From IMG/VR virus record IMGVR_UViG_3300025771_000179, positions 1-24,510 of that record: a stretch of DNA of 24,510 nucleotides. One strand, written 5' to 3'. The stretch comes from a virus. A program made the translations under genes and the position numbers. The notes under the pieces are model-generated. The model did no database searches. It was not told where the DNA came from and saw only the letters and a program-made list of their open reading frames with translations. Positions 386 to 16,699 of the stretch are shown one piece after another (the first letter of the stretch is position 1; each line of letters opens with the position of its first letter).

Positions 386-3013
386 CTACGGCGTTTTACC
401 TGTGTTGAAAAAGCGCACCCATTGTTGCGCTGTCCAGCTTTGGCTGTCGCGCTCAATAGCTTTTCGCACTACCTGCAACGCTTCGTGGTCCACGCGAATG
501 CTAGTAGTCTCTTCAGCAAACAATCCGGTCAAACCAGACATTCTTCGCTCAGTAGGATCGAACCCGCCAATAGTTTGTGGCCGAGATACTCGTTCTGCTT
601 TCAAAGCACTTTCGTACATGTTGCGATATTTTGTGTTGGCCATGAACACATATCGCTGCCCCGGCAATTGCTCTAGCTCTGCGATGTACTCGCGGTTGCG
701 GCCAATGCGGTCCAAATCTTCAGCAGAAGGTCCGATATCAAAACGCAAACCGCCACGAGTCGCTTGCATCAGTCCTAGCTGTACCTGAGTTAGCCAACCT
801 TCTTGGCCTTGCCAAGCCGCTATAGCTTTTTTGAGCCCTGCAATTTTCTGCTTTGGCGACATCATAGCCAGATCGACAAATTCTTGGCGAGCTCGAGACG
901 CCGCTACTTCAGCGCCTGCTACACCTTCACCACGCAAGGCTTGGTTGGCTCCATCTAGCCACAGCATGTCTTGCGTTGCTTGTGTAGCGCGCAGCCAAGC
1001 GTTGTCTGCTGCGTCGAATCTAAAGCGGGTACCGCCATACAATTCGTCGCCAGGTCTAGTGTAGAAGGTAAAAACGCCGTCTTCGTCTTCCGGTCGCAAC
1101 ATCACCTTAAACCCAGTGCTTGGGTGATAGTCGTAGAGCATGACGCGGTTGAGCAATGCTGTGGCGTCTCTGTCGCTGTAGCCGTCTTCTTTGAAGTATG
1201 TGTAGAGCTCAAACTCAATCGCGTCTGGCGGGTTGTCCCCCAAAGCGTCAGTTAGTTCGCGATTGAAATGCACCTTTTCGCCGATGCGAATTGGTTTATG
1301 CGTGTTCAGGAAATCGTGAACGGCAAGATCGACGGCATATTGCTGCATTGCTGCGTCGTCTTTAAGAGGCGTCCCGCGCTGCGCTTCCGCAAGGTAGTGG
1401 ACATTTGCGGCAGACAAGATGTCTCGCGTTTGCTGAACGGTCAAAGAATCAAACTCGACCTTGTCCAGCCCCATAGATTCAGCGCCCGCCTCAAACCGTT
1501 TTTCGACCAGGCGCAGTTCGTCTTTGACTTTCTCTTGCATTGCCTTGCTTGCCGACGCCGGCAGTTGCGCTGTGCCAACAAATGCAGCTTGGCCCGCACC
1601 AAGTCCGGTTGCTGTTTGCAATGCTAGCGAAGCAGAAACGGCGTCTGTCGTACTGCCGTATTTTGCCAAGTGACTCAGCATGGCTACTGTAGAGCCATCA
1701 AACACGGTAGTCGGCATGGCGTCTGGCCCGGTGCCAACAATGCGTCCAGGATTACTGTCGTTGATCCCCATGACAGCTTTGGCTACAGCCGATGCCATTA
1801 GCGGGTTGGGGTTGTTGTTGTTGAGCTGACCCAGAACGAACCGCTGCACCGAATCAGGAAGTCGGTCCATTTGCGGCAAATGACCGCGAAGCCACCGGTA
1901 TGCTTCGTCGGGCTCCATTCGCAGCAAATCTTGCTCGGCAGCTTGTGACCACCAAGTGTTGAAAACCGTCTCCACTTCTGGAGTCATCGTCAGCACGCCG
2001 ACATGCTGACCTCGGCCCATCGCCCATTCGTCAATCACGCTCAAATACTGCTCTTGAGCTTGCGCTTGAGTGATTGAGGACCGTAGCGTAGCACTCAATG
2101 CTGCGCCAATTGGAGTGTCCTGTGCCGGCTCTAGTGACACTAGCAAGCTCTGCAACTGATCGGGAATGCCAGTGCGCTGTAGCGTGCTAATCGGCCCCAT
2201 TGTCGGCACCGCGTCACCGAACATGGGCGTAGTTTCAGTAAGCTGCAACAACCGGCTTGCGCTAAACGCCGCTTGCTCTAACGCAATGACTTTTGTCGGA
2301 CCCACAATGTCTGCGCCTAGTGCGTCAAATGCGCCTTGGCTCAAATCAATTTGATAGGCAACCTGGCCCCAGTCGCTGCCGTAGCCCGTTTTGATCGCCG
2401 CGAAAATGCCCTGACGATACTTGTCTACCTGCTCGCGAAACTCTGGGTAATCAGCCACCAGATTGTCAGCAAACTTGCCGAACTCTTCTGCTGCTGTTTC
2501 GCCAAACCCGTCTGCCGCAAACTGCGACAACTCGGCGTAACTGTCCTCCAGCGAGTACAGGCTGCGTGCCGCTACGGCAGCGTCGATGTCCACCTGTCGT
2601 TCTTCTGGCGTCCGAGCTTTGTAGGCGTCGTAGACTCCTTGGTACTGGCCTTTGAGCTGTGGGTGCGTCACAACTCCAGACACACGCCCGTAGAGCTCAT
2701 CGGTCAGTTTGTCTTGCAGCGCGGCGTAGCCTTCGGTCGTGAACTCCGGGCTCCGAACATAGTCGTCAAGTTGGTTCTGAATGGCTGTTGCGCCGCTCGA
2801 GAACATGGCGCGAGCCTGCGACTGCTGTTGCGTGTAGTCTAGCCGGTCCTGCTTGCGCTGCTTCTGCTGGGCTAGGCTGCCAAGCACGCCTGCAACCTGT
2901 CCGACCGCTCCAGCCAGAGCCTGGGCCGGCGCAGCCTGAGCCGCCGCGCTGGGCAAGTATGCCGGAGCTCCCATGCCGACTTGCGTCTGAGGTACTCTGA
3001 CTGGACGAACCAT
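386..3013 (-). CDS. Internal virion protein, T7 gp15-like
   Basis: An 875-residue protein starting MVRPVRVPQT, with an AAGGAG ribosome-binding site just upstream of the ATG at 3013. The first 60 residues are Ala/Gln/Pro-rich and followed by a QQKQRKQDRLDYTQQQSQAR helix; the rest is mostly charged, helical sequence with little sign of membrane segments. T7 gp15 (747 residues) is an inner-core protein ejected with gp14 and gp16 to form the DNA conduit through the cell envelope. Size, lack of enzymatic motifs, and position between a gp14-like and a gp16-like gene support this role. I did not recognise a diagnostic motif, so the assignment is mainly positional. Confidence 0.72.
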   Translation of the reverse strand: MVRPVRVPQTQVGMGAPAYLPSAAAQAAPAQALAGAVGQVAGVLGSLAQQKQRKQDRLDYTQQQSQARAMFSSGATAIQNQLDDYVRSPEFTTEGYAALQDKLTDELYGRVSGVVTHPQLKGQYQGVYDAYKARTPEERQVDIDAAVAARSLYSLEDSYAELSQFAADGFGETAAEEFGKFADNLVADYPEFREQVDKYRQGIFAAIKTGYGSDWGQVAYQIDLSQGAFDALGADIVGPTKVIALEQAAFSASRLLQLTETTPMFGDAVPTMGPISTLQRTGIPDQLQSLLVSLEPAQDTPIGAALSATLRSSITQAQAQEQYLSVIDEWAMGRGQHVGVLTMTPEVETVFNTWWSQAAEQDLLRMEPDEAYRWLRGHLPQMDRLPDSVQRFVLGQLNNNNPNPLMASAVAKAVMGINDSNPGRIVGTGPDAMPTTVFDGSTVAMLSHLAKYGSTTDAVSASLALQTATGLGAGQAAFVGTAQLPASASKAMQEKVKDELRLVEKRFEAGAESMGLDKVEFDSLTVQQTRDILSAANVHYLAEAQRGTPLKDDAAMQQYAVDLAVHDFLNTHKPIRIGEKVHFNRELTDALGDNPPDAIEFELYTYFKEDGYSDRDATALLNRVMLYDYHPSTGFKVMLRPEDEDGVFTFYTRPGDELYGGTRFRFDAADNAWLRATQATQDMLWLDGANQALRGEGVAGAEVAASRARQEFVDLAMMSPKQKIAGLKKAIAAWQGQEGWLTQVQLGLMQATRGGLRFDIGPSAEDLDRIGRNREYIAELEQLPGQRYVFMANTKYRNMYESALKAERVSRPQTIGGFDPTERRMSGLTGLFAEETTSIRVDHEALQVVRKAIERDSQSWTAQQWVRFFNTGKTP

Positions 3014-3022
3014 GGTTTCTCC

Positions 3023-3442
3023 TTAAGTGGTGTCTTGCGTGGGGGTCGCGCCTGCCGAGCTGATACTTGCCGCTTGCCCCAAGTAGCCAATAGCTTGCCC
3101 GTACCCCTGCAGCCGGCTCGCAGACGCTTGTGCGCGGGCGTCCAGCAAGGCGTTGCGAGCTCCAGCAAGCAGCCGCTCCCGCTGGCGGATGTTGTCCATG
3201 GCAGTCTGCCCCATGACCATGAGGGGCGTCCCAGAGCCTGTCTGAACGCCTGCGGCTCCGTATGCGGCTGTCTGGGCAGCCCGGAGCCGGCGGCCCCTCT
3301 CGCGCTCTGCAGCGGCTTCTGCACGCATGGCAGCCGCTTGACGGCGACCCGCTTTGCGTTGCTGCCTTGCCTGCTCTTCCCCCGCATACACAGAGGTGCC
3401 GGCAGCGACTACGGCAGCAGCGACGGCTACTTCAACTCCCAT
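3023..3442 (-). CDS. Internal virion protein, T7 gp14-like
   Basis: A 139-residue protein with ATG at 3442. That ATG overlaps the TAA of the upstream gene (TAATG), and a GAGGAG ribosome-binding site lies in the end of that gene. A longer in-frame extension to 3529 is possible but would run back through the neighbouring gene and has no such signal. The protein opens with a small hydrophobic helix (VEVAVAAAVVAAGTSVYAG) and continues with a long Ala/Arg/Glu/Gln-rich helix (about residues 20-60). The C-terminal half is again Ala/Gln/Gly-rich. Hydrophobic N-terminus, helical body and place between gp13-like and gp15-like genes fit T7 gp14, the ejected protein that inserts into the outer membrane. 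It is shorter than T7 gp14 (196 residues). Confidence 0.7.
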   Translation of the reverse strand: MGVEVAVAAAVVAAGTSVYAGEEQARQQRKAGRRQAAAMRAEAAAERERGRRLRAAQTAAYGAAGVQTGSGTPLMVMGQTAMDNIRQRERLLAGARNALLDARAQASASRLQGYGQAIGYLGQAASISSAGATPTQDTT

Positions 3443-3810
3443 TACTCCTCTTTCTGCCAGCGGTGAATGATCTGGCCTTTTTCGTCCACCAATGTCGTCT
3501 CCAGTCGAAAGCCAAGGAACATCAGCCACCGCTCGTTTCCAGGCTTGGTGTGCGCGAAAATCTTCTTTTCAAGCTCGAGTTGCAACGCCACAAACCGCCT
3601 AGCTATCCGAGCTCCTCGCATCCGCTCGTAATCCGTTATGTCGTCTACCGTGCAAATCCACAGCTCTGCGCCCCATGGGAAATCTGCCACCCCTCCCGAC
3701 ATGCACGGCAACCCGCTATTTCGTAACAGCGTCAGTCCGTACATGCCGTCCACAAACATGTCTCCGGGGTACGCTTCTGCGTGCTCGTATTTGAACGGCA
3801 CGACCTGCAT
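3442..3810 (-). CDS. T7 gp13-like protein (degenerate GNAT fold)
   Basis: A 122-residue protein starting MQVVPFKYEHAEAYP, its start lying just beyond the stop of the tail tubular B gene. The layout resembles T7 gp13: a short N-terminal approach, then a self or environment phrase (GLPCMSGGVADFPWGAELWICTVDDI split over about residues 33-58), an Arg-rich helix, and the C-terminal pattern NERWLMFLGFRLE, which recalls the acetyl-CoA-fold ending of gp13-type proteins (N..rfL..lGF). In T7, gp13 is needed for virion morphogenesis but is not firmly a structural component; the GNAT-like fold appears to lack enzymatic function. Its position between gene 12 and gene 14 homologues supports the call. Confidence 0.72.
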   Translation of the reverse strand: MQVVPFKYEHAEAYPGDMFVDGMYGLTLLRNSGLPCMSGGVADFPWGAELWICTVDDITDYERMRGARIARRFVALQLELEKKIFAHTKPGNERWLMFLGFRLETTLVDEKGQIIHRWQKEE

Positions 3811-3811
3811 T

Positions 3812-6607
3812 CTATCTCCCGTGCGTCAGTTGGAAGTTGAGCCCTGCCACCTCAAAGTGGTACGGCAACTCATGCGTAATTGGGATTTCGTGCATTGTCC
3901 CGTATGTCCCGACCGACACGACCTTCCGCCATTCCGTTACAGCACTAACTGGTGTTGCCAGAGATGTCGCATTCGGGATCGACACCCCCGGCGGCATGAC
4001 CGTGTTGCCTGCCACCTTGCCGCCAATGGATTCACGAATCAGCACAATCAGAGTGGAGACTGATTCCAGCCGCCCCTGCGAATCCCCTTGGTTAGGGATC
4101 ATGAAATGGGGGATTGTCGGAGTCAGCTTGAACGGAATCGCTCTGCCAGCTTGAGACGCATTAGGCGTGAAGCCCACTTCTGGGTGCGTCACCACGCCTT
4201 GGGAATCGACTGCGTAGTCGCCAATGTACACAAACGGCCCACCCGCGTTTTGCTGCACCATGACTTGGACTGGCTTGGACGCCGGCAAGTCAATGAGGTT
4301 GGACCCGGTATTCAGCCCGGTTCCAGACAGCGACGATCCGTTCACCGTCATGTCCATTGCGAACTCGGGCGTCATGCGCTCAATGGTGCGGACCACCGTC
4401 CCTGCACTCGTTTGACCCCCTTGCGTCCACCGACGGACAATCCAGAGCTCGTCCTGCTGCACGCGAATGCCGTCGCCCCGCACCGTGGTAATGGACTCAA
4501 TGGTAGAGTCCTCGCTAGCGGTCCCCAGCGTCGTCGGGAACGACGGCTGCGTCAGGCGAGACCACCCGGTCACATTGTTGGCTCGCCACATGGAGAGGGC
4601 GTACAGGCGGTCCTGCGTGTCTTTTGCGTACAGTGCCTGTCCTGGCGTGCCGACATAGGACAGTTGCTCAATGACGATGTCCTCAAACAGGTGCTTGGCC
4701 AAGTCCGTCAGGTCAGGGCTCTGGTACCTGTTCGCGTCGTCCCGGAACACCATCTCCCGGAGACCCTTGCCGGCAGCGTCAGTAAAGATCACCGCGTTGT
4801 CCACCATGGGAGGGCGCACATTCCGCGAGCCGATGCTGCTCTGTTTCTCAACGGCTAGGTTGGCGGGAGTGATCGGTCGTCCGCCTATGGCGTATTCGCC
4901 GGTAGCAGTCCCGATGAGAAGATCCGACGCAGAGGCCATCCAAGTAAGGCTGCCCCCGTAAGAGTCGGCGATGTCCGCGCTGATGCCGTCACTGTCCAAG
5001 CCGCCTGCGGTAAAGTCCTCCGGCTCGTAGACCTTGGAGGCTACGACGCGCCCTGGCTTTTCTTTGTAGCCGCCCATCCAGATACGGCCTTGGTGTGACG
5101 CCCCACAGGACGGGAATCCTACACCGTGGCTCTGGGTCAGTCCCCACTGCATCGACGGCCCTTGGTGCGCCATGGGCTTCACAATGCGAGCGTCGTAGAC
5201 CACCTCGTCGCCGTCAGGGCCAGCAGCCGTATCGACTCCTGTGATCGCGACAATGCCGCCGTTGATGTGAATCCCACCGCCGACCAAGTTGCCTTCCCAG
5301 CGGTCGTAGGTAGTGGCGTGTCCGGCAGGCAACCATTGGCTGTCAGTAAATGTGGGGTTGCTGTAATACTGCAAGTATCCGTTTGGGCTGTAGACTTTGT
5401 ACTCGTCTGCGATGAGCTGCCCTGCCCCGTCTCGAGCCTGCCCGACATACACCGGCAATTTCTTGAGGTAACTCCGGTTCAGCAAGCTGTCGGGCACCGT
5501 CTGCTGCGCGGAATTGGCCGCAATCCCGTACACGGTAACCTCGACGCTGTCGCCAGCAGGGATGCCGTTGCCGTTTTGCAGTCGCACGATTTCCACACTG
5601 CTGCTGGTGTTGACATAGGTAATGACGCCTAGAATCGTGGCGTCCACCGCGAACGTGGTACTAGAGACCTGCACAACAAAGCCAGTCCAGTTAGCTTTGG
5701 CTGCCGGTGTTGTTGGTCCCGTCAGCGTCACATCGCTCAAGAGGTTAGCGGAGTTGACTCCCCAACCTTGCACCGCTGTGCCAGTGTAGGTAATCAGAGG
5801 GGTATAGGGACCAGTCCAGTCGAGCGAGTCTGGCCCTACTCCACCATAGCGTGTTACGACATCTAGATCCGTGCGGCTCTTGTAGCGCGTAACCTGCACC
5901 CAATTGCCCCAAGGATTATCCACCGGGTCTGCTGCGTTTGCGCCCATGACGCGCCAATAAGAGTCGTTGTCGTCAGGCACAAAGAAGTCAGAGTCGGTCG
6001 TTAGAGTGTTGCCGACAAACTCAACCGGCGTTCCAACACGGTAGTCAATGATGACCGGGCTGCCCGTCTGCTTGGGATACAGCCCGTACTCCCACGCTTC
6101 GGAGCCAGGATCTTGCACCTGCCTCTCGAGGTACACCGCCGGCTTGTCTGGGTGCATGAAGTAGATGCGCTCAGAGTCTTGGAACGAATACACCGAGCGC
6201 AGTTCCGTAGCCGTGAAGTTGTGGTAGTAGGCTGTTCCGTCACCAAATGCGCTGAACGGCCCATGCGCTGCGTTGTCGCCAAAATCGACAAAGGTTTGCG
6301 TGGCAGCGTCCATGACTCGCAGTTGCCGAGCCGGCGTGTTGGTGTCTGCTGCGTCGTCGCCTGCGGAGACAAACTGCACGACATACTGACGGCCCTTGGC
6401 GTAGTAGAAGAACAGGCGGGCGAAGTTGTTGCCCGTTGTGTTCGTCACGATTTGCGTGCCGTACCGTTTCCGGGCCGCTCCTGTCGGCGTTAGCAGCGCG
6501 TTCACGAGCTCCATGCACCCAGCCTGGTACTGGCTGGTGCTGACCATGCCGTACACAGACGGGCTAATTTCACCCGTGGCAAAGGACTGCTTGGCGACCC
6601 AGACCAT
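3812..6607 (-). CDS. Tail tubular protein B (tail nozzle), T7 gp12-like
   Basis: A 931-residue protein starting MVWVAKQSFATGEISP, with an AGGGGGA ribosome-binding site before ATG 6607. The N-terminus carries the phrase typical of podovirus nozzle or tail-stabilising proteins: an F.tGEiSPsvyG block, then a Y..GC.ELvNallTPtGaarkRyGT block (about residues 7-52). The rest is beta-rich, as expected for a propeller-like nozzle that hexamerises below the gatekeeper ring. T7 gp12 is 794 residues, so this is somewhat longer. It follows the tail tubular A segment with 8 bases between. The only ACGT tetranucleotide found in the window lies inside it at 5653-5656. Confidence 0.92.
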   Translation of the reverse strand: MVWVAKQSFATGEISPSVYGMVSTSQYQAGCMELVNALLTPTGAARKRYGTQIVTNTTGNNFARLFFYYAKGRQYVVQFVSAGDDAADTNTPARQLRVMDAATQTFVDFGDNAAHGPFSAFGDGTAYYHNFTATELRSVYSFQDSERIYFMHPDKPAVYLERQVQDPGSEAWEYGLYPKQTGSPVIIDYRVGTPVEFVGNTLTTDSDFFVPDDNDSYWRVMGANAADPVDNPWGNWVQVTRYKSRTDLDVVTRYGGVGPDSLDWTGPYTPLITYTGTAVQGWGVNSANLLSDVTLTGPTTPAAKANWTGFVVQVSSTTFAVDATILGVITYVNTSSSVEIVRLQNGNGIPAGDSVEVTVYGIAANSAQQTVPDSLLNRSYLKKLPVYVGQARDGAGQLIADEYKVYSPNGYLQYYSNPTFTDSQWLPAGHATTYDRWEGNLVGGGIHINGGIVAITGVDTAAGPDGDEVVYDARIVKPMAHQGPSMQWGLTQSHGVGFPSCGASHQGRIWMGGYKEKPGRVVASKVYEPEDFTAGGLDSDGISADIADSYGGSLTWMASASDLLIGTATGEYAIGGRPITPANLAVEKQSSIGSRNVRPPMVDNAVIFTDAAGKGLREMVFRDDANRYQSPDLTDLAKHLFEDIVIEQLSYVGTPGQALYAKDTQDRLYALSMWRANNVTGWSRLTQPSFPTTLGTASEDSTIESITTVRGDGIRVQQDELWIVRRWTQGGQTSAGTVVRTIERMTPEFAMDMTVNGSSLSGTGLNTGSNLIDLPASKPVQVMVQQNAGGPFVYIGDYAVDSQGVVTHPEVGFTPNASQAGRAIPFKLTPTIPHFMIPNQGDSQGRLESVSTLIVLIRESIGGKVAGNTVMPPGVSIPNATSLATPVSAVTEWRKVVSVGTYGTMHEIPITHELPYHFEVAGLNFQLTHGR
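5653..5656. other. Only ACGT tetranucleotide found in the window
   Basis: A by-eye read of every line for ACG followed by T gave this single hit, inside the nozzle gene at a Thr-Thr-Phe stretch. All other ACG trinucleotides are followed by A, C or G. Confidence 0.85.
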
Positions 6608-6615
6608 TGTTCCCC

Positions 6616-7269
6616 CTAGTAGAATGCGTCGTGAATGCTGTAGTCGGTCAGAGTCAAGCGAGCTGCAGATTGTCCGTCGGTGCGGCGGGCGTTGCGACGA
6701 GCCATCTCAGCCTGCTGCTCCAGCAGGGCGACATCCGCGTTGCTCGACCCAAGGTCGCTGGCCATGTGGACAGCAAAGGTCAGAGCCATAGCCCACCGCA
6801 TGTCTTCCGGCAGGTACATGTCAATGTCGCAGTCCTGCACCATGAAGACATAGTCCAGCGTGGCGGACGCCTCATTGGTGACGAGGCAAAATGCCCCTGC
6901 GCCGGCGTCGTTGAAGATGACTTTCTCTTCCCACAGCCCCATGCCATTAGCCGTCTTGGTGCCCGGTTGGTTTTCTCGACCGTTGAGACGGATAGACCTC
7001 ACCCAATGCGGCGTCAGGTTGTCCAGCCGGTATGCGTACTTCCACGGGCCAACCGGGTTCACATCGCCTGGTGTCACCGTGTTCTGGTATTTGGCGAGCT
7101 CCACCGAAGTGTACGCACCGTTCCACACATGATCGCGCAGGAAGGTTCCTTTAAATGACGGCCAGTTGGCAGCCATGGCTACCGCCTGTGCGACATTGTC
7201 GGTCGTTGCCGTCAGCGTCTCCAAACCCAGTTTGGTCAGCGCGACATTCCAGATGTCTAGCTTGCTCAA
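6616..7269 (-). CDS. Tail tubular protein A (gatekeeper), T7 gp11-like, internal in-frame start
   Basis: Within the 1625-residue frame a TTG codon at 7269-7267 would start a 217-residue protein, MSKLDIWNVALTKLG..., matching the length of T7 gp11 (196 residues) and its usual beginning. A GGAGG sequence at 7279-7275 sits five bases upstream, as good as any ribosome-binding site in the window. TTG is also the most likely start for the small gene at 19404. Gatekeeper proteins form the twelve-subunit ring between portal and nozzle and hold the fibres in T7. The nozzle gene follows directly. Family membership is clear; separate translation is inferred from the start signal. Confidence 0.75.
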   Translation of the reverse strand: MSKLDIWNVALTKLGLETLTATTDNVAQAVAMAANWPSFKGTFLRDHVWNGAYTSVELAKYQNTVTPGDVNPVGPWKYAYRLDNLTPHWVRSIRLNGRENQPGTKTANGMGLWEEKVIFNDAGAGAFCLVTNEASATLDYVFMVQDCDIDMYLPEDMRWAMALTFAVHMASDLGSSNADVALLEQQAEMARRNARRTDGQSAARLTLTDYSIHDAFY

Positions 7270-10200
7270 GTAATCCTCCAAGCTGCACAGGTACACGGTT
7301 ACCGACTCAATCTCGTCGATGATTCCTTCAAGGCTGCCTGCAGCCACCGGCGGGTTGCTGTTTGTGCCTGACGAGTCGTCCAGCACTGGCAACATGCCGC
7401 GTTGGCGAATGATCGTGGCAGAGGCCGCACTGCCGCTGCCCAGCCCACCCGTGGCAGCGATGCCATGCGACCGGATCAGTATGACCGGCAACTGCGCCGT
7501 GCTGCTGCTAGACACGCGGGGGATCAGCTCAGGACGCACTCCCAGGCGAGCGGTCAGCCCGCTAGACAGCGCAGCGTCTGCAGGTGGCACATAATCCCGA
7601 TTGATGAGAATGTCCGGGATCAGGTACCCGCTAGTCGCCGGCGCATTGAACACGGCGTTGGACATAAAGCGCGTAGCCCCGGTCTCAATATTAGAGAACC
7701 CGAACGACACGGATCCGGGCTCATTCGCAGCAGACATTGCGACATTGCGAGCTGGCGCGATGACAGCAGGCTGATCGCTAATGACCGCCGGCGGGTCACT
7801 GACGCCCATGCCTCTCGCCATGGAAGTTGGCACAAGCAACTGGCCCGACGCACCGGCCTCGTTTTGCAGCAAGTTGTGGAACGGGATCGCAGTGTTCTTC
7901 TCGAGAACAGCGAACAGCACAGTCGCCGCCGAGCCTGGGTCTTGAGTCGCAGACAGCACAATGTCCAAGTACCAGTCTACAACCGGTCCTTCGGATTGCA
8001 CGAGTGCCGGATCGTCGGGGTTGCCTACGCCACGACTGATCTCGAGCGGCAGCAATGCGTGATCGCTCGTTCCAGCAGCGGGGTTGTTTGCGTTCCCAAG
8101 GAACCTCACCGGGGTCAGCTCGACTGGCGCGAGCTCAAAGCTGCTGCTTTCCACTCCAGGCTGCAGCGCGGACATTACCACTTGCTTTGCCATGAAGACC
8201 GGCGGCTCGTCAGACAGCAAGTTAGACGGAGTGTTTTGGTTGGTTAGCGGGCGTACGCCGTATCGCTCAAGAACGGGTCGCGTTTCAAATGCGCGGATGT
8301 CTGTCCGTTGTGCCTCGCGACCACGGTTAATGCCCAATGCGACAACTTCACCCGACTCGGTCGGCAGTAGCACATTGGTGCCGCTAAAGTCTTTGCTGAT
8401 TGACAGCGACGGCAAAGACTCCGACGCGCTAGACGGAATCTCGGCGTTTGTAGCCGTAAACGGAATCTCGCCGGCTACGCTAATGGTCGGTAGCAGTTGC
8501 GTGCTGCGAGCGTTGATGGGGGTATTTGTTGCGTTTTGACGGCGGAGCAGCGCGTTGCTAGACCCGTCAAGCGTTCGCGACAGAGACGGCGTGTTCTGGT
8601 TATCGGGCTTGAGGATCAGCGCAGTGCCCGCTGATTGCGTGACGAATGCTGTGCTAGCATTGCCTGCGTTGCTCATGTACAGCGGAGGCGTCACGGTCAT
8701 GTCTGCTTGTAGCTGATTGCTCTCTGTGCCACCCAGTCCGTCGTCTGCCATGCCTCGAATGACGCTAGGGGCAGCCGTAATCAGGCTAGCTTCGCTGCCG
8801 ATCTCCAACGCCGTGCCGGACATGCCTTTCTCGACAGCGAAGCCGCCAGACTCAGCGGCCAGTACCGGCACCGGGTCAATCGTGTTGCTCAACTGCGGGT
8901 TGCCAGCCACCTGCAAGATAGGCGTATGCTGCGACGAGGCGGTGCGATGCCCGTTTGGGTGCTGAGGCTTGAAGTCCGCCAAGCGAGCAAAGTTGAACAA
9001 GTCCTGCTCGCTGACACTGCGGTGGGCCAAACTTGTAGCAGCGGCTTTGCGATCTACGAGTAGCTTCGGCGCAGGTTGCGTAGTCGCGGCAGGAATCTGC
9101 ACCGTTGGCGCAATGCCTCGAGACGCTCCAAAGCTCGGCACGCTTTGACTAGAGTCTGCCGGTACCGGAGCTGCGCTAGCCGTAGCGGCACGCTCAATGA
9201 GCAAGGTGACGGCGTCGTCTGCGCTGGTCACGACCGTCACATCTTGAACATTCTCCAGCGGGATCTCGCCTGCCGTGACAAGTGTCACAATAGCGTTTGC
9301 GCTAGCTGTGTCAGCCGTAGCCTCATGCGCTCGCGCCATAGACGCGGCGTTGTCTTCGCTCGCAACAGCGTCTAGAGAAGCGTCAGCGACCGACATGCGG
9401 GCTTCGCGGTCAAGCGTAACGGTTTCTGCGCTATCGGACTGGCTGGGCGAACCGGACGCCGGCAACGGGCGCAAACGGCCAAGCAGCACGGGGGTGTCGC
9501 TACTACTCGTCGCGCTAGGCGTGCCGGCGTTGCCCATATCGTCCGACTGCTGCAGCGACGGGTTGTCCTGGCTGCTTGTCCCGTCGTTTGTCGCCGCGTG
9601 ACCCCGTTGAACGACCAACTCATTAGACTCACCGGCGACCACCACGCTAGGTGCGCCAGTTGTCGTGGGGCCGACCAGCCGCGCTAGAGTGGGAATGTCG
9701 TTGGCACTAGTAACGGGCTGATCTGTCGTGCTGGACGACATCGGTTTTTGACCGGCGGTCGTGATCGTCAGCACGCTCTGGCCAGACACGGTCCCGTCAG
9801 CGCGTTGAAATGCTACCTGTCGGCGCAGCACTACGGCGTCTTGCCCAGCCGCTGCCTCACCAGGCACCGCCGCCAGCACGCGGCCTGCGTCAATGTCTGC
9901 AGAATCTTGGGTGGCCGTTGTGCTAGGCGCGAGCACATTGTACAGCGAGACTGCGCCGGCAATCGTTAGCGTGGGCTGGCCGACCTCTGCTCCGCTGCTG
10001 TTGTTCCCTGCTCCAGTAGCCGCAACAAGCACCGTTACGCCTACATACGGGACATTATTGTCGCTCAGAACGAAATCTGCCGGGTCGTCAGCAGTCATGT
10101 TGCGACTGAACGCAATTTCTGGCAGAGCTCCGTTCTCCGATTGCGAACGATCTGGGAACGCGGTGTTGTTTGTAGACAGCGTGCGGTTTAGGTCGGCAAT

Positions 10201-11493
10201 GCCGTCAGGCTCGGTTGCGTCAGCGTCAACGGCAGCAGGCTGATATCCTCGAGCCCGCACCCACGCAGCGTCGTCCTGATCGGTGTCGGAGTTGTCGCCG
10301 GCTACGGCAAAACCTGGCACTCCCCTAATTGTCGCGTTTTCTTCTGCAACAGAATTGTTGCCAGCTCTTGTAGCCGGGAACGGCACCAAGATGACAACGC
10401 TAGGGTCGCCTTGCCCGCTAAAGCTAGCGTTGGCCAGCGAGACTTCCGCCGCAGTCATTTCTCGGATCGTGCCGCCATACGGCTCAATAATTGGGCTCGA
10501 CGCGAAACCTATCCCGAACGCGCCGCTAATTGTGCCGTCAAAGCCACTTGAAGACTGCCCAACATGAGTGACGCCAGAAGCGGTAGTCCCAGGCGCGTCG
10601 TTAAAGCGGAGGCAATGTCGCAGCCAAGAGCTTCCAACGCTTTGCGTTGGCGATTCGCTAGTAACGCCGCTATGCCGCACATACACATTGCGCCGCGCTT
10701 CCAATTGCGACGGAGACGGCACAGCTTCGTTTGTTGGATTAGGGCTCCACCATCTGCCCCACACGCGCAATTCCGCTACGCCACCGTCCAATATGCTAGA
10801 CGGCACCACTGAGGTTTGCGTTCCGTTGAGTTTGCAGCCGACCGTAATGGTGTACGACAAAGCCGTTGTAGCTAGCTGCCTAAATCCAGCCATGCCGTCA
10901 GCCAACAAATACGGAGCAGAAGTGCTTGTTACAGCCCCAACATTTTGATGCATATAAGCGTTGGGCAATTGATCGGGATTGCTGCCGTACAAACTGTCCG
11001 CCTGAACAGCAGAGCCCAACACGCTTACGCCAGTTCGACCGTGGTACACATGAAAGTTGTTGTCGCCAAAAATGTTTTCGTTATCTGCGCTTTGCGTTGC
11101 GCTGGGCTCATATTGCACAATCGTGTGCCACCATTGGCCAGATACATTAGACCTGTTGCCTAAGTTCAACGCGCTTGTTTTGTACTGGCCCCCTCCGCTA
11201 GTGCGAAATTGGACTAGCGCAATGACATCGCTTTTGTTTTCTTGCAGTTGGACGACAAAAAGCGGCTGATTACCACTGTTAACATCTGTGCGGGACGCAA
11301 ACACAGTCTGATCGTGTACAGAGCCATTGTCGTTGATAAACCAGAACAACTCGTAGCATTGCAATCGCGTAGTGTAGTATTGGAAAAAACCTGTTGGCCA
11401 CCATTGCTCATTTGCAGAGCCCGCCGTCACCAAGTACGCCGGAGCCTGGTTCTTGTTGAGCGTGCCAATGCAACGCGGCTCAAGGCTAGGCAT
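6616..11493 (-). CDS. Giant fibre-like protein fused to tail tubular protein A
   Basis: A continuous 1625-residue frame starting at ATG 11493 (GAAGG ribosome-binding site seven bases upstream), overlapping the previous gene by 8 bases. Three regions are visible. Residues 1 to about 345 are aromatic and Asn/Gln-rich and look like a LamG/concanavalin beta-sandwich (for example SGQWWHTIVQY and the late DGGVAELRVWGRWW phrase). Residues about 345-1385 are low in aromatics and Lys, rich in Ala, Ser, Thr, Asn and Asp, and form a degenerate repeat of roughly 22-25 residues whose best copies end in a P.L.I.RG-like strand. Residues 1409-1625 are a complete T7 gp11-type gatekeeper (SKLDIWNVALTKLG, then PEDMRWAMALTFA, ending in the helix EQQAEMARRNARR). 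Usual podoviral gp11 is about 200 residues and free-standing, so the 1400-residue N-terminal extension is very unusual. A frameshift or lost stop merging two genes cannot be excluded from sequence alone. Confidence 0.85.
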   Translation of the reverse strand: MPSLEPRCIGTLNKNQAPAYLVTAGSANEQWWPTGFFQYYTTRLQCYELFWFINDNGSVHDQTVFASRTDVNSGNQPLFVVQLQENKSDVIALVQFRTSGGGQYKTSALNLGNRSNVSGQWWHTIVQYEPSATQSADNENIFGDNNFHVYHGRTGVSVLGSAVQADSLYGSNPDQLPNAYMHQNVGAVTSTSAPYLLADGMAGFRQLATTALSYTITVGCKLNGTQTSVVPSSILDGGVAELRVWGRWWSPNPTNEAVPSPSQLEARRNVYVRHSGVTSESPTQSVGSSWLRHCLRFNDAPGTTASGVTHVGQSSSGFDGTISGAFGIGFASSPIIEPYGGTIREMTAAEVSLANASFSGQGDPSVVILVPFPATRAGNNSVAEENATIRGVPGFAVAGDNSDTDQDDAAWVRARGYQPAAVDADATEPDGIADLNRTLSTNNTAFPDRSQSENGALPEIAFSRNMTADDPADFVLSDNNVPYVGVTVLVAATGAGNNSSGAEVGQPTLTIAGAVSLYNVLAPSTTATQDSADIDAGRVLAAVPGEAAAGQDAVVLRRQVAFQRADGTVSGQSVLTITTAGQKPMSSSTTDQPVTSANDIPTLARLVGPTTTGAPSVVVAGESNELVVQRGHAATNDGTSSQDNPSLQQSDDMGNAGTPSATSSSDTPVLLGRLRPLPASGSPSQSDSAETVTLDREARMSVADASLDAVASEDNAASMARAHEATADTASANAIVTLVTAGEIPLENVQDVTVVTSADDAVTLLIERAATASAAPVPADSSQSVPSFGASRGIAPTVQIPAATTQPAPKLLVDRKAAATSLAHRSVSEQDLFNFARLADFKPQHPNGHRTASSQHTPILQVAGNPQLSNTIDPVPVLAAESGGFAVEKGMSGTALEIGSEASLITAAPSVIRGMADDGLGGTESNQLQADMTVTPPLYMSNAGNASTAFVTQSAGTALILKPDNQNTPSLSRTLDGSSNALLRRQNATNTPINARSTQLLPTISVAGEIPFTATNAEIPSSASESLPSLSISKDFSGTNVLLPTESGEVVALGINRGREAQRTDIRAFETRPVLERYGVRPLTNQNTPSNLLSDEPPVFMAKQVVMSALQPGVESSSFELAPVELTPVRFLGNANNPAAGTSDHALLPLEISRGVGNPDDPALVQSEGPVVDWYLDIVLSATQDPGSAATVLFAVLEKNTAIPFHNLLQNEAGASGQLLVPTSMARGMGVSDPPAVISDQPAVIAPARNVAMSAANEPGSVSFGFSNIETGATRFMSNAVFNAPATSGYLIPDILINRDYVPPADAALSSGLTARLGVRPELIPRVSSSSTAQLPVILIRSHGIAATGGLGSGSAASATIIRQRGMLPVLDDSSGTNSNPPVAAGSLEGIIDEIESVTVYLCSLEDYLSKLDIWNVALTKLGLETLTATTDNVAQAVAMAANWPSFKGTFLRDHVWNGAYTSVELAKYQNTVTPGDVNPVGPWKYAYRLDNLTPHWVRSIRLNGRENQPGTKTANGMGLWEEKVIFNDAGAGAFCLVTNEASATLDYVFMVQDCDIDMYLPEDMRWAMALTFAVHMASDLGSSNADVALLEQQAEMARRNARRTDGQSAARLTLTDYSIHDAFY
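7267..7279 (-). promoter_or_regulatory. Internal ribosome-binding site and TTG start for the gatekeeper
   Basis: Reading leftward, GGAGG is followed by ATTAC and TTG. It lies in the middle of a longer open frame, exactly at the boundary where the gatekeeper domain begins, so it decides whether a free gatekeeper can be made. Confidence 0.65.
7339..10461 (-). repeat. Degenerate 22-25-residue protein repeats (fibre shaft)
   Basis: The translated region shows dozens of weakly conserved units. Clear examples include SASESLPSLSISKDFSG, TSDHALLPLEISRGVGN, NQNTPSLSRTLDG and AQLPVILIRSHGIA. The shared pattern is a small/polar turn, often with Asp, Asn or Gln, then [L/T/A]-P-x-[L/V/I]-x-[I/V/L], then Arg or Lys with Gly or Asn close behind. 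Repeats have diverged at DNA level, so no exact tandem repeat is seen. A beta-solenoid or similar elongated shaft is the likely structure. Boundaries are approximate. Confidence 0.55.
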
Positions 11494-12091
11494 TGCGCGG
11501 CCTTCTAGCAGAAGTCAGGTCGTAGTAGTAATGCGTGTTGCCGTACGGAAACGCCGCGCCTGCGTTGACGCCTGTACGCGCTTGCCTTGCGACATACACA
11601 TTGGCCCACAGCTCATGGATTACCTCAAACGGGCGGTTCCACAAACGGGGCTCATGCGTTACGACGGTCTTGATGTCGATGTAGTCCAAGCCTGCAACAT
11701 CGTCCGGCGTGATGTACTGCTCGTACGGGCTCAAGGCTAAGTTGTACCCAGCAGTCGTGACTTGCGCGGCAGACACATCCGTCCACACGCCGTTCTCTGC
11801 GGTGGGGGGCGCTCCGCCGACCGCCGGAGCGGACACCAGCCCTGCGACGGCTCGCATGGTGCGCTTCCACGATTGCGGGCCGCTGTTGGCTTTCAAGTAC
11901 ACCCGCTGATACAGGTCCACATAGCTAGCCACCGGCAACCCTAGTTGAGCTCCTGCCACATAGGTCACCGTGTCCGGCTCGAGAACCTGAATGACATTGG
12001 CTGCGACCAGAATGCGCCCACGACGGTACTTTGACGGGGATCGCCCGTAGCCATTACCCAGCGGTCGATGTCGTTGCGCGTCCCAGCCCAT
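11486..12091 (-). CDS. Virion-associated protein of unknown function
   Basis: A 201-residue protein starting MGWDAQRHRPLGNGYGR, with a GAGGT ribosome-binding site before ATG 12091 and six bases after the stop of the 907-residue fibre gene. The first 30 residues are Arg/Gly-rich; the middle has alternating hydrophobic residues suggesting beta strands (VIQVLEPDTVTYVAG) and one helix (YVDLYQRVYLK). It ends with a Tyr-rich HYYYDLTSARRPR tail. I recognise no family. Its place between two fibre-like genes suggests a fibre adaptor, chaperone or minor tail component. The stop overlaps the next start by 8 bases, pointing to translational coupling with the giant fibre-gatekeeper gene. Confidence 0.75.
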   Translation of the reverse strand: MGWDAQRHRPLGNGYGRSPSKYRRGRILVAANVIQVLEPDTVTYVAGAQLGLPVASYVDLYQRVYLKANSGPQSWKRTMRAVAGLVSAPAVGGAPPTAENGVWTDVSAAQVTTAGYNLALSPYEQYITPDDVAGLDYIDIKTVVTHEPRLWNRPFEVIHELWANVYVARQARTGVNAGAAFPYGNTHYYYDLTSARRPRNA

Positions 12092-15779: not shown

Positions 15780-16259
15780 CTAAGTGAGTCGGAGAACCAG
15801 GTTGGTAGAAGCAATGGTAACAGTGTCGTTCACATCGACATTCTTGCCGGTGTCGAACGCGCCGGTCCAAATGCAGGACGGCGTAGCTGCGTTGTCGTAC
15901 AACGCCCAGCCGCTGACATAGTTGGTGCCGGTAGCCCATGCAGTGCCCTGGCAGGTCGGGAAAGTCACAGTGGCATCGTTCGAGATTGACGCAGGGTTGC
16001 CACTAGTCGGCTGTTGAGCAGCCGTACCGAATTCGACTGGTGTGCGGGCGTATGCAGTGCCACTAGACGACACTTCGTCAGCTACAGAAGCAGCACCGTC
16101 TGCAGTGTCGTCTCCGGGGTCAACTCCATTACCGCTACCGCCAACAAACAAAGCCAAGTTGAGCCTTTGGTCGCCGACGGCAAGGTAAGTGTACGGGTTC
16201 GCGTCACCGCGAATGATTGCGTTGAGAAAATCTTGCCGAGCTCCAATAGTCAAAGGCAT
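15780..16259 (-). CDS. Phage tail-fibre/decoration-like protein
   Basis: A 159-residue protein with AAAGGAG eight bases before ATG 16259; this ribosome-binding site lies in the last codons of the upstream gene. The layout is that of a widespread small phage structural family: an N-terminal helix (RQDFLNAIIRGDAN), a first strand with a size-limited payload (TYLAVGDQRLNLALFVG), an acidic loop, the EV...GTAYARTPVEFG strand, then ATVTFPTC, SGWALYDNA and a final VNDTVTIASTNLVLRL. Such proteins are found beside capsid genes in many phages and are thought to be head decoration or fibre proteins. The adjacent gene at 16263 looks like a divergent paralogue. Confidence 0.72.
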   Translation of the reverse strand: MPLTIGARQDFLNAIIRGDANPYTYLAVGDQRLNLALFVGGSGNGVDPGDDTADGAASVADEVSSSGTAYARTPVEFGTAAQQPTSGNPASISNDATVTFPTCQGTAWATGTNYVSGWALYDNAATPSCIWTGAFDTGKNVDVNDTVTIASTNLVLRLT

Positions 16260-16262
16260 GTT

Positions 16263-16670
16263 TTAATCTCCTTTAATCAGTAGTTCTGCAGTGCCGATTG
16301 TGCGTGACTCGCCGTCTGACACCACATGAGGATCTATCTCGTCCCATGTCAGCAGATTGCCGTTGGTTTCAGCGTCAAACACGCCCACGCCAATGACAGT
16401 TGCTGGGCTCACGGTTAGAGCTACATTCGACCACAGCACCGACCCCACATTCCGAATGACACGCACCCGGTTGGTGAAGTCTGCCGGCTCAGACCAATGA
16501 GGGCTGCCCAGGCTCGAGTTCGGGTAAACCCGAACCCGGCCTGGACCCCACTCAATTGCGCCATGAGCGGTCGGGTGGTCTGCAGTCGGATTCGTCGTGA
16601 ACAGCGTGACCCATGTCTCTACCGGGGTCGCCGTTTCGGCGCGGTAGAGATTCAGGGCCTTGTCAGCCAT
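16263..16670 (-). CDS. Capsid-proximal decoration/fibre-like protein, paralogue of the next gene
   Basis: I take ATG 16670 (MADKALNLYRAETATPVETW) as the start, giving 135 residues; a GTG at 16691 would add seven and neither has a strong ribosome-binding site. The protein shares the fold outline of its 159-residue neighbour: helix, WVTLFTTNPTADHP strand, GRVRVY strand, WSNVALTV, a GVGVFDAETNGNLLTW turn and a closing GTAELLIKGD strand. It starts about 30 bases after the capsid stop, so decoration of the head is a reasonable guess. Confidence 0.68.
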   Translation of the reverse strand: MADKALNLYRAETATPVETWVTLFTTNPTADHPTAHGAIEWGPGRVRVYPNSSLGSPHWSEPADFTNRVRVIRNVGSVLWSNVALTVSPATVIGVGVFDAETNGNLLTWDEIDPHVVSDGESRTIGTAELLIKGD

Positions 16671-16699
16671 GAGCGTAGTCCGACCTGCCACAGCTAGAC

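Follow-up and report, generated by a model that had tools for sequence, protein, structure and literature searches.

The proteins closest to the one described here are the gp11-type adaptors, or gatekeepers, of podophages, such as T7 gp11 (7box), the Carin-1 connector (8ck1_E), PhiM1 gp52 (8vb4_M) and LME-1 orf17 (9efk), which stand alone, are ~190-220 aa long and are encoded directly upstream of the nozzle gene. The T7 fibre, gp17, comes from a separate gene and sits on the short tail near the gatekeeper, with its N-terminus as anchor and its C-terminal part binding the receptor. Podophages with separate fibres match a fixed number of fibre trimers to the 12-fold ring by means of an attachment domain. 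An internal start that adds a shorter collinear protein to a ring is also known, since the T7 gene 4A/4B primase-helicase contains both a long and a short form, although this is a replication enzyme without a structural fibre. In M13, gene 1 gives G1p and, from an internal start in the same frame, G11p, and the two products are built into one oligomeric ring (PMC9228878), which in this case belongs to the machine that assembles a filamentous phage at the membrane. As regards fibre attachment, the PhiM1 adaptor contacts six trimeric fibres (PMC11440229), which makes the ring plausible as a fibre site.

The locus reported here differs from the gp11-type systems in that the adaptor is part of a much longer frame. 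The window, that is, the whole stretch of 24,510 nucleotides analysed (IMG/VR record IMGVR_UViG_3300025771_000179), carries on its minus strand a frame of 1625 aa (11493-6616) in which a probable tail fibre, made up of an N-terminal module and a shaft, together ~1400 residues, is joined without interruption to a gatekeeper that resembles the above adaptors in profile and fold. The same architecture was found in 11 frames, including those of diverged relatives. As in the phages with stand-alone adaptors, the gp12-like nozzle gene (931 aa, 3812-6607, minus strand; PHROG 376, E 2.8e-68) follows directly downstream; the portal (21068-19401), capsid (17674-16700) and terminase genes lie upstream, which places the gatekeeper inside a portal-capsid-tail module. 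Two adjacent genes of the window (15780-16259 and 16263-16691) both match the head-protein family PHROG 240 and are probable tandem paralogues. The start of the fusion is overlapped by 8 bases by the 3' end of a 201-aa ORF (11486-12091, minus strand), and it is possible that the translation of the full-length product is coupled to that of this gene. The ORF begins with MGW, contains RPLGN.YGRS, gave no family match and has a counterpart of similar size at the same place in two relatives (G001 and G002).

That the gatekeeper is fused in frame, as had been proposed, is confirmed by an IMG/VR contig from another metagenome (L002), which is 99.7% identical over 19.5 kb and keeps the frame without a gap. 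A sequencing error masking a stop upstream of 7269 was rejected, since L002 is gapless and the diverged relatives are open at the boundary too. Of the 51 differences between the window and L002, 46 fall in positions 98-965 (two end ORFs), as if this were a recombined tract.

The original prediction had assigned the last 217 residues of the frame (residues 1409-1625) to a gp11-like gatekeeper, and both profile and structure comparisons agree with it. A podophage 'tail protein' family, PHROG 394, covers residues 1410-1612 (E 2.7e-18). When a profile built from the domain was compared with the PDB, it hit the Carin-1 connector 8ck1_E (E 1.4e-19). Foldseek matched the predicted structure to the adaptors of Carin-1 (8ck1), LME-1 (9efk), PhiM1 (8vb4) and T7 (7box), the best 20 matches being podophage adaptor or tail complexes with prob 0.98-1.00 and TM ~0.3-0.4, the latter computed on a query that still carried a disordered N-terminal segment. 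In the AlphaFold fragment, pLDDT is ~33 at residues 1-40 and 84-88 from about residue 50 (domain ~80), and the leucine codon proposed as internal start corresponds to residue 47, so that the confident fold begins approximately there, after a boundary segment that covers residues 1363-1408 of the fusion (7270-7407). A separate gatekeeper of ~190 aa was not found in these phages, the domain forming the C-terminal end of longer frames (931-2001 aa). A stand-alone gatekeeper would exist in them solely as the predicted product of an internal start.

Several features make the N-terminal part of the frame a likely fibre: the shaft is repetitive and practically free of cysteine, one relative has a ConA-like domain, and the N-terminal modules vary. 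In the window this part belongs to no known family (no Pfam match; PDB sequence search empty), and a structure model of the N-terminal module was discarded because of its pLDDT of 41. This module (residues 1 to ~340, 10474-11493), presumed to be distal and receptor-binding, is homologous to those of G001 and G002 and to a separate ORF in another relative, L026. The degenerate shaft (residues ~345-1395, 7309-10461) has a period of ~23-24 residues; the autocorrelation peak at 23 is strong in the distant relative L043, and in the window the peaks at 23 and 73 are weak, at or just above those of shuffled sequences. Cysteine is absent or almost absent from the shafts. A Laminin_G_3 (ConA-like) domain was matched significantly in L026 (6.6e-17); in G001 the match stays below the threshold. 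The layout of T7 gp17, with an N-terminal anchor and a C-terminal receptor-binding end, does not apply, since the C-terminus of the fusion is the gatekeeper; compared with T7, the fibre would run in the opposite direction, anchored by the ring protein itself.

The fusions differ in their N-terminal modules. L026 (3986-9991) and L041 (5043-7838) share an 'SRICD' type, and other types are found in L043 (4332-7757), L047 (5529-8699) and L052 (3947-6982), a distribution which suggests that a distal module is exchanged on a conserved C-terminal anchor. In L026, the N-terminal module lies in an ORF of its own (485 aa, 2528-3985), whose TAA is immediately followed, without a change of frame, by the ATG of the 2001-aa fusion; a GGAGG stands 8 bases upstream of this ATG. 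This is either a further in-frame split within the fibre or a stop to be checked. In the G002 fusion (L020:3715-9558), of 1947 aa, the shaft is interrupted midway (residues ~970-1560) by a long non-repeat insertion without a Pfam match.

At the boundary between the two domains, a GGAGG followed by five bases and a TTG had been predicted at 7279-7267, and the minus strand, ...TTGGAGGATTACTTGAGC..., reads exactly so, with GGAGG at 7279-7275, ATTAC, and TTG at 7269-7267 (Leu1409). Initiation at this codon is predicted to yield a free gatekeeper of 217 aa (6616-7269). Among the 1625 codons this is the sole ATG, GTG or TTG with a Shine-Dalgarno (SD) sequence of at least 4 bases at a distance of 4-10 bases. 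Its predicted SD duplex (-9.3 kcal/mol) ranks first among those of the 118 in-frame start-like codons and equals that of the nozzle gene, the value for the full-length start being -3.3 kcal/mol. TTG starts are usually inefficient. Synonymous codon shuffling of the window still yields the site in 14% of cases, so that the window alone is suggestive and the relatives are decisive.

Relatives were found via portal, nozzle and gatekeeper, and are uncultured phages represented by metagenomic, mostly incomplete contigs. Eleven frames were compared, those of the window, G001, L026 and G002 (nearer) and those of L041, L043, L047, L049, L052, L053 and L054 (distant; the L054 frame runs off the end of its contig). 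The gatekeepers are 79% (G001), 64% (L026), 61% (G002) and ~30-33% (second group) identical to that of the window, and are always C-terminal in fusions of ~931 to 2001 aa. The same frame is thus present in relatives, and none of the 11 has a stop at the boundary between fibre and gatekeeper; among close relatives the two are not separate genes. One PHROG 394 match was found per scanned contig, inside the fusion, and no second gatekeeper gene; since most contigs are incomplete, another gatekeeper, or a fibre gene of its own, could sit elsewhere. Full-length tblastn found no such fusion in cultured phages, for which searches with the gatekeeper domain gave weak matches, the records examined having separate genes of ~180-195 aa, and none was confirmed in bacterial and archaeal genomes. 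In the deposited phage records MW202898 (L055) and MW202742 (L056), the gatekeeper-like genes bear the label 'major capsid protein', which is probably a misannotation.

The frame is open over ~900-2000 codons in every relative, and residues at the boundary are partly conserved within groups (C.LE.YL; IDGVGD...NLL.RS.I). Both observations favour use of the fusion, and its retention in evolution is strongly supported by the comparison. The strength of the two start signals is not the same everywhere: in the window and in G001, L043, L047 and L052 the internal SD is the stronger of the two, in the window and several relatives by a wide margin, which is not so in L026 and L041, and the ratio of fusion to free gatekeeper may differ among phages. 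Where the internal signal is stronger, most of the output could be free gatekeeper. It could then be the case that both proteins are made and do not share a ring, either because the fibre is released by proteolysis, for which the predicted disorder of the boundary segment would leave room, or because the ring is made up of free gatekeeper, the fusion being rare or non-structural. We regard this as improbable, in view of the conservation of the frame and of the boundary residues, and because constant cleavage of the fusion would leave the internal start largely redundant.

Evidence for use of the internal start itself comes from its conservation. A single alignment column has, in 11/11 frames, an in-frame start codon preceded at 5-7 bases by an SD of at least 5 bases, the next-best column having both in 3/11. 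The codon in that column is TTG (Leu) in four frames, ATG (Met) in four and GTG (Val) in three, and the residues that encode the SD also differ, GGAGG being read through Leu-Glu-Asp/Ala in the nearer phages and AGGAG through Arg-Ser in the seven distant ones, where it lies 7 bases upstream of the ATG or GTG. The four nearer phages have identical DNA, TTG GAG GNN TAC TTG AGC, which is exactly the longest codon-identical run among them. In all four, each of the two leucines of the site is encoded by TTG, although TTG makes up 28, 24, 6 and 10% of their Leu codons, and none of the other invariant leucines is codon-identical in either the gatekeeper (0/13) or the nozzle (0/16). At other conserved residues, codons are shared about as often as independent choice would predict, a few pairs lying modestly above this level (window-G002, 0.46 vs 0.38 expected), so that silent sites are near saturation and the lineages are almost independent there. 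Synonymous shuffling of the four nearer phages yields the site at frequencies of 0.14, 0.06, 0.02 and 0.03, with a product of ~5e-6 that somewhat overstates the odds, given the excess in some pairs. The sequences of the distant group are closer to one another, and their synonymous conservation alone is less informative. The position also agrees with the limits of the protein. The PHROG profile opens, in most fusions, at the residue right after the internal start, the predicted free products are 209-217 aa long, and the stand-alone gatekeepers of L028, HTVC034P and Baldr have their Met one column before.

It is also conceivable that only the full fusion is used, all twelve ring subunits carrying a fibre chain, and that the start-like site is the relic of a gene whose upstream stop was lost. 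The gatekeeper stands alone in cultured relatives, so the site probably does descend from a true gene start, and all fusions have an open frame. A relic should nevertheless decay, whereas SD and start codon have been kept in 11/11 frames despite nearly saturated silent sites, and the signal stays while the residue at the start codon changes between Leu, Met and Val. We consequently hold this explanation to be quite unlikely. It is very improbable that the conserved block is some different kind of DNA or RNA element, for instance a promoter or a processing site, rather than a ribosome-binding site. Although the conserved nucleotides of the TTG group (TTGGAGGNNTACTTGAGC) reach slightly beyond SD and start codon, the two groups differ in sequence (GGAGG-5-TTG vs AGGAG-7-ATG/GTG) and have in common the SD-plus-start grammar, the frame and the position.

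Since the start signal is kept while its residue varies, it is conserved beyond what amino-acid constraint demands, and selection for internal initiation is strongly supported by sequence comparison. To this extent the prediction of two proteins from one gene holds; the further step, that both proteins are made, is one that we infer. We think it very probable that the gene gives rise to a fibre-gatekeeper fusion and to a free gatekeeper, presumably co-assembled in a 12-subunit ring. The 1625-aa fusion would be initiated weakly at 11493, probably coupled to the upstream gene, and the 217-aa gatekeeper at TTG 7269, where it has a strong ribosome-binding site to itself. As the two would share the ring-forming domain, they could co-assemble between portal and nozzle, and the ratio of fusion to free form, together with spacing, would limit the number of fibres on the ring. 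In this arrangement the C-terminus would anchor the fibre, and the variable N-terminal module would be its outermost part. We favour, with less assurance, the complete reading of a two-product tail ring in which translation from two starts sets the fibre number and modules are exchanged at a free N-terminus, the reverse of T7. Unlike M13 G1p/G11p, the ring would be that of a virion tail, and its long form is predicted to bear a fibre. In a search of open-access literature we found no precedent for a fibre-gatekeeper fusion or for an internal start in tail genes. Both the protein family and the gene-expression trick are known, and it is their combination that is new, with a possible structural consequence.

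In these uncultured short-tailed phages the probable fibre and the ring protein are one polypeptide, and the internal start appears to supply subunits free of fibre, which would constitute a translational solution to the problem of stoichiometry and symmetry in a virion ring: a single gene could set how many ring subunits bear a fibre. This reading predicts a reversed fibre polarity, with a C-terminal anchor and an N-terminal tip, and places the exchangeable modules at the N-terminus. Moreover, a gene caller would list a single protein for a locus that probably yields two, and a start codon whose encoded residue varies between Leu, Met and Val clearly marks internal initiation when relatives are compared.
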